Positions 13,014 to 42,717 of a DNA stretch of 42,807 bases are shown here, piece after piece (the stretch's first letter is position 1; the number at the start of each line of letters is the position of its first letter). The notes under the pieces were generated by a model. That model was not told the DNA's origin. It ran no database searches and was given only the letters and a program-made list of their open reading frames with translations. Both the position numbers and the translations under genes were made by a program. The stretch comes from Candidatus Uhrbacteria bacterium (lineage in GTDB: Bacteria; Patescibacteriota; Patescibacteriia; UBA9934; GWF2-40-263), in contig JACPHU010000001.1 of assembly GCA_016188495.1 (NCBI GenBank), positions 1 to 42,807 of the forward strand, in the 5' to 3' direction.

Positions 13014-13206
13014 GAGATCGTTTCAAAACTTGATGAGATTGCCTTGAACGTCATGCCGAAGGCAGATCCGCCTCTGGCGGAGGCTGCCCGCCCGCCCGCA
13101 GAACGTTCGTTCGGGCGGGTCGAGTCCTGCGAACCCTATTCACATAGGGAGAGCTGGATCGACGGGCGCCCGTAAAAGGCAAGATCGCAAGTTTTGAAAA
13201 GATCTC
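13014..13206 (+). repeat. Structured element copy A (with internal insertion)
   Basis: A 19-bp outer stem joins 13014-13032 and 13188-13206 (18 of 19 pairs). Inside it are ATGAGA (13033-13038) opposite GATCG, then TTGCC opposite GGCAA, then UUGAACG... and GCCCGUAAAA. The apical hairpin is CCCTAT-TCAC-ATAGGG (13134-13149), flanked by GCGAA and AGAGC. About 62 extra bases after 13050, themselves GC-rich and palindromic, interrupt the 5' side of the third stem compared with copies B and C. It lies upstream of the propeller gene (start 12993) and downstream of the S-layer gene terminator, in the opposite orientation to both. Confidence 0.85.
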
Positions 13207-27698: not shown

Positions 27699-27824
27699 GA
27701 AATCTCTGCACAAATCGCGATCTTACCTTTCACGGGGCCCCATTGGCTCGTCACTGTATGTGAATACAGCTCTGTCGCCAATCTCCCCATTCAAGGCAAT
27801 CTCATCGATTTGTGCAGAGATTTC
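27699..27824 (-). repeat. Structured element copy B (perfect 19-bp outer stem)
   Basis: Read on the minus strand, the 19 bases at 27824-27806 pair perfectly with 27717-27699. Then come ATGAGA/GATCG, UUGCC/GGUAA (one G-U pair), AUGGGG/CCCCGU, AUUGGC/GCCAAU, and the apical hairpin CUGUAU-UCAC-AUACAG with GA-rich flanks. It starts 9 bases after the stop of the O-antigen ligase-like gene (ending 27833) and ends 2 bases before ATG 27696, so it is almost exactly the intergenic region. Confidence 0.9.
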
Positions 27825-29388: not shown

Positions 29389-29499
29389 ACCCTTCGACTC
29401 GTCGCGGACTCCTCGCTCAGGGAGTATGAGGATAAAACTCATTATGCATTAACTAATATTCCCTGAGCGAAGCGACCAACGGGAGCGAAGTCGAAGGGT
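29389..29499. repeat. Palindromic repeat, CCTGAGC/GTCGAAGG family, copy 3
   Basis: ACCCTTCGAC at the left and GTCGAAGGGT at the right form the outer arms, with GCTCAGGGAGTAT and ATATTCCCTGAGC inside. The whole is a large imperfect palindrome made of two inverted units. Confidence 0.85.
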
Positions 29500-34694: not shown

Positions 34695-34740
34695 CCCCTT
34701 CGACTCCGCTTCCGTGGGTCGCTTCGCTCAGGGAATATTA
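34695..34740. repeat. Palindromic repeat, CCTGAGC/GTCGAAGG family, copy 5
   Basis: CCCCTTCGACTCCGCTTC ... CGCTTCGCTCAGGGAATATT. It lies 10 bases from structured element C. Confidence 0.8.
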
Positions 34741-34749
34741 ACTTCTATT

Positions 34750-34878
34750 GAGACCTCTGCAAAAATCGATGAGATTGCGGTGCACGGGCTGCTGAGCCCC
34801 GAGAACCCTACTAAGAGTAGGGAGAACGGGGTCAGCGGGGCCCGTAAGCCGCAAGATCGCGAGTTTTTCAGAAGTCTC
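34750..34878 (+). repeat. Structured element copy C
   Basis: The outer 19-bp stem joins 34750-34768 and 34860-34878 (16 of 19 pairs). The invariant loop ATGAGA/GATCG follows, then UUGCG/CGCAA, a compensated swap relative to UUGCC/GGCAA in copy A. Next are ACGGGC/GCCCGU, GCUGA.CCCCG/CGGGGUCAGC, and apical CCCUAC-UAAGA-GUAGGG with AGAA on both sides. Its last base is the first plus-strand base of the stop codon of the convergent Wzz-like gene. Confidence 0.9.
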
Positions 34879-35528
34879 TATTCATTGAAATCCTCGTGAA
34901 CAAACTGGTGTCTGCGTCTAATACGTTCAGTTTGGAGGATGGTAAAGGCGATTCCTACAAACCCTCCTAGTACAAATCCAGAGGACATATTTACAATAAT
35001 GTCTGGTTTCACAGGCCATCGGGAATTCAAAGGCTCATCCACAAGACGGACGGACACGTTGGCTCCCGACGTATACTCGCCCACACGTTGGGTAAGAACA
35101 AAGGAAATCGCGCGCACGAGCTGTTCTGCCTGATTGATATCTGTGTGGTAAGCGGTGACCGAAAGCAGTCCTGAACCACGGGCCACGGTTGCCTTAACCG
35201 TTCTTCCCCAAACTTTTCTTTGTCTTGACGGGTCTTCAGGAAAAATAGACTGATCAATGCTAAACCCTGCATCTACTACCTGATCAAAAAACGTACTAGT
35301 GTAAATCAGTGTGGAAAGATTGTCCGCGATCCGTTCTTCTGAACGCGAAGCCGTGTACGCATCTACCCCAGAACCGACATCTTGCAAAATAAGCAATCGC
35401 GAGGTAGAGGAATATTTGAGTGGCTGGATAAAAGAAATAATCAGAGCCAGTACCAACCCTAACAGACCAAAAAGAAGAATCGTCTGCCAATGTCCAAACA
35501 CGTCACGAAGATAATTTGGTTGGGCCAT
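34878..35528 (-). CDS. Wzz/chain-length-determinant-like membrane protein
   Basis: 216 residues with TM helices near 17-36 and 178-197 and a mixed periplasm-side region between them (SRLLILQDVGSGVDAYTASRSEERIADNL). This two-helix hairpin with a central helical domain is the polysaccharide co-polymerase (Wzz/YveK) layout. PLNSRWPVKPDIIVN carries the Pro-rich segment before the second helix. No kinase domain is attached. It probably regulates glycan chain length or export with the O-antigen ligase-like protein. A TATACT box lies nine bases before the ATG. The stop codon overlaps element C by one base. Confidence 0.83.
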   Translation of the reverse strand: MAQPNYLRDVFGHWQTILLFGLLGLVLALIISFIQPLKYSSTSRLLILQDVGSGVDAYTASRSEERIADNLSTLIYTSTFFDQVVDAGFSIDQSIFPEDPSRQRKVWGRTVKATVARGSGLLSVTAYHTDINQAEQLVRAISFVLTQRVGEYTSGANVSVRLVDEPLNSRWPVKPDIIVNMSSGFVLGGFVGIAFTILQTERIRRRHQFVHEDFNE

Positions 35529-42022: not shown

Positions 42023-42056
42023 AACAATATCGCATCATGAGTGATGCGATATTGTT
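42023..42056 (-). terminator. Terminator of ssrA
   Basis: Minus strand AACAATATCGCATCA / TGATGCGATATTGTT, 15 pairs, followed by TTTG. It starts at the last base of the encoded CCA. Confidence 0.85.
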
Positions 42057-42450
42057 GGTGGAGCTGAGGGGAATTGAACCCCTGTGTGGTTAGATTTTTC
42101 ACAATGACGTTTCCAAGCTCATTCACACCTGGAATACCTACATGCGCTTAAGGTGTGACGCAATACGTCTGTAGGAACCGATCGCAACTCTCGAGCGCGA
42201 AAGATCGGTGACTTCGCGTTCAAAGCTCAAAAATATAACACCCAATTGCTGGCTCTTGAGCAAAACCAACTTGGATGGTCCTTCAAACCCTTAGGCGAGG
42301 ACAGGAGCAAATGAAGGAACGCGCAAAGCGTTCTTGATCATTGCCATGACGTTGTTTGCAGTTGTCGTCTTACACGAGTTTGAGTACGTGCGGTCGTGCC
42401 CACACGGCTTGATCATTGTGAGTAGGCTCCCATCGATACCGATCAGCCCC
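42056..42450 (-). ncRNA. ssrA: tmRNA (ssrA)
   Basis: 395 bases. The 5' end GGGGCTGATCGG (42450) pairs with CAGCTCC before the encoded CCA (42056-42058), forming the tRNA-like acceptor stem. GGGGTTCAATTCCCC near 42066-42080 is the T arm. The 5' side has the TATCGATGGGA D-like segment. The tag frame starts at GCA 42359-42357 and ends at TAA 42293-42291. It encodes 22 residues beginning ANNVMAMIKNALR and ending PSFAPVLA. tmRNA rescues stalled ribosomes and marks the truncated product for proteolysis. The tag is longer than the usual 10-15 residues and ends in the usual hydrophobic-Ala style. Confidence 0.97.
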
Positions 42451-42609
42451 GGGACTGTTCCCGAATTCGCAACCTTGCCTTTCACGGGCACCCAGCCATC
42501 TCTTCAATGTACATTTTAGGTACATCTTCAGAGATGACCCGTCCGAATGGACATGAGTCCGGGCGGACAGCCCGTTCAAGGCAATCTCATCGAATTAGGA
42601 AACAGTCCC
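42451..42609 (-). repeat. Structured element copy D, flush against tmRNA
   Basis: Minus strand: 19-base arm 42609-42591 pairs with 42469-42451 (17 Watson-Crick, one G-U, one mismatch). Then ATGAGA opposite GGTTG, UUGCC/GGCAA, ACGGGC/GCCCGU, an extra GUCCG/CGGAC hairpin, and CAUCUCU/AGAGAUG with apical AUGUAC-CUAAAAU-GUACAU flanked by GAAG and UGA. It ends one base before tmRNA base 1 and starts within about ten bases of the predicted transcription start, so it is essentially the whole pre-tmRNA 5' leader. Confidence 0.88.
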
Positions 42610-42622
42610 GTCCCATGAGAAA

Positions 42623-42651
42623 AAACTAACAGAAAAACAGTGTTTTGTCAA
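42623..42651 (-). promoter_or_regulatory. Promoter of the element D-ssrA transcript
   Basis: TTGACA (42651-42646), 17-bp spacer, TAGTTT (42628-42623), minus strand. The expected start lies near 42616, just before the first arm of element D. Confidence 0.65.
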
Positions 42652-42679
42652 TCAAAAAATCCAGGATGTCAACGGGAAA

Positions 42680-42717
42680 TAGAAATGTCCTACTTCCAGG
42701 GATTTAGAAATGTCCTA
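42680..42717. repeat. 13-bp direct repeat at an insertion-sequence end
   Basis: TAGAAATGTCCTA occurs at 42680-42692 and 42705-42717, 25 bases apart. The second copy overlaps the stop codon of the transposase fragment. Such repeats are likely transposase-binding sites; the nearby TGTCAACGGG could be the terminal part. Confidence 0.6.

Follow-up and report, generated by a model that had tools for sequence, protein, structure and literature searches.

In this Candidatus Uhrbacteria bacterium, the long hairpin that separates the tmRNA gene (ssrA) from its promoter is very probably a non-autonomous, MITE-like transposable element (element D), which inserted between the two and is now tolerated as a self-contained leader rather than acting as a switch. 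The window is the whole stretch of 42,807 nt that was analysed; coordinates without a contig or locus label refer to it.

A hairpin between the ssrA promoter and the tmRNA

The tmRNA gene is encoded on the minus strand at 42450-42056 (Rfam RF00023, 90.1 bits; not called at this position by ARAGORN) and retains an intact acceptor stem, GGGGCUG/CAGCUCC. It is the sole Rfam match in the window; over element D the search returned nothing credible at E values up to 10, and no ORF of at least 80 aa was found over the element. As an earlier note on this DNA had held, a structured element directly adjoins the mature tmRNA: the hairpin ends at 42451 and G1 of the tmRNA is at 42450, leaving no gap. The region 42616-42451 folds into one long interrupted hairpin with an MFE of -87.6 kcal/mol (z = -7.85; 0 of 200 shuffles). 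Alignment with related copies sets the borders of the element at 42451-42609 (159 nt); of the span originally proposed, 42451-42616, the end at 42451 stands, whereas the start has to be corrected to 42609, positions 42610-42614 (GGGAC) being flank. The promoter expected upstream of the element was recovered as well, with the hexamers TTGACA and TAGTTT 17 nt apart, and the same arrangement is retained in the same-genus relative G004.

Features of the ssrA locus:

42646-42651, minus strand: ssrA -35 hexamer TTGACA, kept in G004
42623-42628, minus strand: ssrA -10 hexamer TAGTTT, after a 17-nt spacer, kept in G004
42610-42614, minus strand: GGGAC, presumed left copy of a 5-bp target-site duplication and the only excess besides the element relative to the empty site of G004
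42451-42609, minus strand: element D, MITE-like palindrome (fold z = -7.85; covariance model R1, 86.8 bits, E 1e-18; homologous copies)
42593-42609, minus strand: 5' arm GGGACTGTTTCCTAATT, type C terminal inverted repeat (inverted repeat I1; arm type also at C12:15587)
42451-42467, minus strand: 3' arm AATTCGGGAACAGTCCC, partner of the 5' arm (pairing probability 0.9996 in the folded pre-tmRNA)
42446-42450, minus strand: GGGGC, putative right copy of the duplication, identical with tmRNA bases 1-5 (comparison with G004)
42056-42450, minus strand: tmRNA (ssrA; Rfam RF00023, 90.1 bits)

Judging from the sequence layout, transcription would start just 5' of the hairpin, which would then constitute almost the whole leader of the pre-tmRNA. 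Since the genome has genes for RNase P RNA and RNase III, such a leader could be processed. The suggestion that the element is a leader removed by RNase P thus agrees with its position, but the notion of a regulatory leader specific to ssrA does not fit a dispersed mobile element. Just 5' of the ssrA promoter, at 42674-42717, the window carries two 19-bp direct repeats (GGGAAATAGAAATGTCCTA), possibly another insertion-sequence end.

A dispersed family of palindromes with insertion-sequence ends

A DNA search with the element against its own genome (1.19 Mb in 29 contigs) yielded 81 local matches, and 47 distinct copies were extracted via the conserved motifs GATGAGATTGCCTTGAACGG and CCGTGAAAGGCAAGATCGCG. 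The covariance model R1, built from 31 copies, finds 69 places in this genome (some matched on both strands) and DNA matching adds three longer copies, giving at least 72 dispersed copies with listed lengths of about 70-235 nt. R1 also matches 31 of 43 genomes of the same bacterial family, from once to dozens of times per genome. The copies are many, short and scattered, and carry no transposase gene. Their architecture consists of inverted terminal arms of about 17 bp flanking a conserved hairpin core (GATGAG ... GATCGC). Over 65 copies, 1098 of the 1170 positions in the 17-bp arms are Watson-Crick paired, and 23 of 34 pairs have changed on both sides (0 of 500 shuffles reach the observed values). 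Searches of the literature on Uhrbacteria hairpins, Patescibacteria MITEs and MITE/tRNA combinations found no account of this element family.

Further copies in the window:

13014-13206, plus strand: copy A, a member of the element family
27699-27824, minus strand: copy B, ending 2 nt short of the probable start codon (ATG) of a glycosyltransferase gene
34750-34878, plus strand: copy C, flanked by the 4-bp direct repeat TATT (34746-34749 and 34879-34882), its right end coinciding with the stop codon of an opposite-strand gene (34878-35528)

Copies L002 (minus strand), L004, L005, L037 and L042 contain, beside TGA, another palindromic repeat (CCCTTCGAT...CTCAGGG...), which resembles the inverted pair at 29454-29498 and 34696-34740 of the window; the result is hairpins within hairpins.

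The origin of the ends could be traced for two arm types. Type A arms (GAGACCTCTGCAAAACTC) agree at every base with the end of an element in G002 that carries an IS5-family transposase (NF033581, 185 bits); this IS5-like source is broken by a contig end, and one of its ends is seen. Type B arms (CTGTGAATKAYGAAACTC) match both ends of another element in G002, here termed IS982-like because its score against the IS982 model, 111, lies below the cut-off of 130. Ends in common with an autonomous insertion sequence were thus found for types A and B, element D being of type C (GGGACTGTT[T/C]CC; end sequence GGGACTGTTCCC). The DDE transposase matches L259-L263 showed no type A ends. The match between arms and insertion-sequence ends, together with the target-site duplications described below, argues for a MITE built around a conserved hairpin core. 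An origin by insertion into a pre-existing terminator loop was also considered and was dropped because the arms match insertion-sequence ends.

An empty site and target-site duplications

In G004, the ssrA promoter and the tmRNA are conserved and directly joined, with nothing between them. When the 159-nt element is removed, the ssrA locus of our genome aligns to that of G004 with a single excess, the five bases GGGAC beside GGGGC of the tmRNA. On alignment evidence, GGGAC/GGGGC is best read as a target-site duplication with one mismatch; a target duplicated in this way would have rebuilt the tmRNA 5' end, accounting for the flush junction and leaving the mature RNA unchanged. The copy at C12:15587, which has a close type C arm, is flanked by an exact 5-bp duplication, TGAAT, and orthologous non-RNA sites that are empty in one genome and filled in the other display the duplications TATT (C15:20197) and AAGA (C15:63667). 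Exact 4-bp flanking repeats occur at 9 of 69 copies, a figure that 0 of 500 shuffles reach, and apparent duplications of 7-8 bp are found at type B copies, for example TCCACAAG at C20:1707. Clear duplications are seen in a minority of copies only. Duplication and empty allele are nevertheless documented by element D against G004, by the family-wide test and by the TATT and AAGA pairs.

Association with tRNA and tmRNA genes and with stop codons

At 17 of the 42 tRNA and tmRNA genes of the genome, the right end of an R1-type element lies 0-7 nt from the RNA 5' end (p ~1e-27, a rough binomial estimate in which 140 kb of intergenic DNA are assumed). A related hairpin outside the R1 model is present at tRNA-Ser, and two further elements adjoin tRNA 3' ends. 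The right ends also neighbour opposite-strand stop codons, 23 of 32 of which lie within -6 to +5 nt according to simple ORF calls, and in several cases element bases supply part of the stop codon; no such boundary pattern exists at the left ends. A TTAT-like target preference might be the cause of the stop-codon side of the pattern. With elements flush at 16 to 17 tRNA genes, many tRNAs of this bacterium probably have to be released from a transposon-derived leader. Loss of flanking DNA by erosion was rejected as the source of the flush right ends, since the left flanks at filled tRNA sites keep the leader of the relatives.

Only the right (GATCGC) end adjoins gene boundaries, though both ends bear nearly the same inverted repeat. 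At C18:10021-10150 (G000), element bases complete the stop codon of GroEL, the codon position being unchanged; in four of five relatives examined, GroEL likewise terminates in Met-Tyr-stop, without an element. tRNA-Lys(CTT) lies between two elements (G000 C2:1902-2236; L003 and L048), one at its 5' end and one 2 nt past the CCA, and the RNase III gene (C2:2529-2918) is its close neighbour.

Maintenance of pairing

The sites at the Arg-tct and Leu-taa tRNAs are filled both in our genome and in G004, and there 6-8 of the 18 positions have changed in both arms, which are still complementary. RNA-adjacent copies (n = 16) have accumulated more substitutions from the known end sequences than other copies, with fewer mismatches per substitution (12/152 versus 60/304, p = 0.004). 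In the arms, G-U pairs outnumber A-C mismatches by 23 to 6 (p = 0.002), an excess that favours folding of the sense strand. Because RNA-adjacent arms are the most diverged and yet remain paired, hairpin folding may be kept by selection.

These observations bear on a reading that goes beyond tolerance, namely that the elements originated as transposons and were then co-opted, so that the leader hairpins of tRNAs and tmRNA are functional in RNA maturation and under selection, for example as an RNase III or RNase P substrate or as a leader that prevents misfolding. The frequency of R1-type elements at RNA 5' ends, the Arg-tct and Leu-taa arms that retain complementarity through 6-8 changes, and the higher divergence but lower mismatch of RNA-adjacent arms all speak for it. 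We nonetheless consider co-option unlikely: the presence of the hairpins is erratic, many orthologous tRNAs and the ssrA of close relatives being without one; copies away from RNA genes are mostly paired too; and template-switch correction of imperfect palindromes, or replacement by a new insertion, could also keep the arms complementary.

Mode of mobility and the proposed switch

It is very improbable that the family represents a REP-type element moved as a single-stranded hairpin by the REP-associated tyrosine transposase of the genome, even though the hairpins are long, their pairing is strand-biased and each genome of the genus has a Y1 transposase match (the protein of our genome being NF047646). 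Around the tyrosine transposase gene lies an unrelated inverted repeat of its own (AAGGGGTCAGGTCGG), the repeats at L252 being a different sequence from the element, and both the duplications and the identity of arms with IS5/IS982-type ends favour DDE transposases. At L252:972-1906 (G000 C6), the gene for the REP-associated tyrosine transposase lies between copies of its own inverted repeat AAGGGGTCAGGTCGGATTACGGA.

Of 33 same-family genomes, 7 have a hairpin that ends no more than 10 nt from the tmRNA 5' end (9 of 50 genomes overall), compared with 3 of 927 control positions; ssrA is struck repeatedly, not regularly. In G003 and G005, the ssrA hairpins have different arms and a GATCGC-like motif, and no hairpin is found at ssrA of G001 and G004. 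The earlier note had itself counted relatives whose ssrA lacks such a leader as evidence against its reading, and G001 and G004, both of the same genus, are such relatives; flush related hairpins are confined to the 7 of 33 same-family genomes. In two relatives, a comparable hairpin is located instead at the tmRNA 3' end, in L076 (G033) and L080 (G027), flush with or 2 nt from the CCA.

The earlier note had also pointed to the likeness between the arm (GGGACUG) and the tmRNA 5' end (GGGGCUG) and envisaged alternative pairing of the arm with the acceptor strand. The two sequences do differ at a single position, but a GGGACTG arm is also present at a non-tmRNA site, C12:15587. Their likeness therefore does not require descent from tmRNA and most plausibly reflects the type C end itself. 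We folded the 566-nt pre-tmRNA and also forced the alternative pairing of arm and acceptor strand. In the predicted fold, the probability that the 5' arm pairs with the 3' arm of the element is 0.9996, against ~1e-8 for pairing with the acceptor strand, and forcing the latter is predicted to cost ~16 kcal/mol. Moreover, the 5' arm meets its own 3' arm long before the tmRNA 3' end is transcribed. Predicted pair probabilities in the acceptor stem are 0.77-0.93 instead of 1.0, and this modest weakening in the model is the most that supports any influence on folding. Despite the near-match of the arm and its placement directly before the tmRNA, a dedicated ssrA regulatory leader whose GGGACUG arm competes with the acceptor strand has next to no chance of being correct, given the cost and negligible predicted probability of that pairing, the identical arm motif at a non-tmRNA site and the ssrA genes of G001 and G004 without a hairpin.

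Proposed course of events and known elements

If element D is a MITE-like insertion tolerated as a leader, a transposase would have made a staggered cut, 5 bp wide, behind base 5 of the tmRNA gene, and gap repair would have duplicated GGGGC, leaving the tmRNA 5' end complete and the promoter shifted 164 bp upstream. Transcription would begin a few bases before the hairpin, which would fold on itself before the tmRNA is made and be removed by RNase P, perhaps with the help of RNase III. At RNA genes, loss of pairing in the leader would interfere with folding or with cleavage by RNase P, which would probably explain why the hairpin stays well paired. Some of the data sit less easily with this scenario: the duplication at ssrA carries one mismatch (GGGAC/GGGGC), strong enrichment and fixed polarity at gene boundaries are not an ordinary MITE property, and the protective-folding step rests on the statistics of few RNA-adjacent copies (n = 16). 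It is possible, if short of probable, that the conserved hairpin core travels as a passenger, borrowing its ends from several unrelated families of insertion sequences and entering gene boundaries in a fixed polarity; at RNA genes it would by now be a permanent component of tRNA and tmRNA precursors, so that ~40% of the RNA genes in this reduced genome would be matured from a transposon hairpin with compensatory changes in its arms.

Among known systems, RUP and Correia/NEMIS elements are short, gene-less, high-copy and intergenic, have inverted ends in common with insertion sequences and produce target-site duplications; transcribed copies of this type form hairpins, and RNase III cuts Correia elements in mRNAs (PMC10969869, PMC2229807). 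The Uhrbacteria element resembles them in size, lack of genes, copy number, intergenic location, insertion-sequence-like ends and duplications, but its core bears at least three end types with differing duplication lengths, and its copies lie at fixed polarity, flush with tRNA/tmRNA ends and stop codons; tRNA genes are unmentioned in these two reviews. Rickettsia palindromic elements and ERIC are palindromes of 100-150 bp that form long stem-loops (PMC2229807). Their likeness to the Uhrbacteria element lies in this description; how the latter moves can be read from its duplication and from the insertion-sequence ends that it matches. With REP/RAYT systems, the family has in common dispersed intergenic palindromes and a RAYT gene in the genome, but this RAYT has its own repeats and the elements show duplications and DDE-type ends. 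Dictyostelium TRE5-A, an example of the retrotransposons that target tRNA genes, favours insertion just upstream of these genes in a compact genome (PMC5391098); the Uhrbacteria element likewise lies 5' of tRNA genes, but is a bacterial, DNA-type element placed between promoter and RNA gene as a predicted transcribed leader.

A mobile element can thus separate an RNA gene from its promoter and leave the mature RNA unaltered, as the duplicated target rebuilds the 5' end, and this explains a tmRNA-leader hairpin that would otherwise be taken for a riboregulator. If the leaders are transcribed, RNase P must strip transposon hairpins of 100-230 nt from the transcripts of many tRNA genes and of ssrA in a minimal CPR genome, and leader tolerance, processing by RNase P and RNase III, and palindrome maintenance become testable. 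Of all these findings, the association of the whole family with tRNA genes most deserves further study. At L169, L170, L201 and L202, tRNA-Gln is preceded by a different hairpin, situated after a GTTCGG motif that resembles a broken tRNA.
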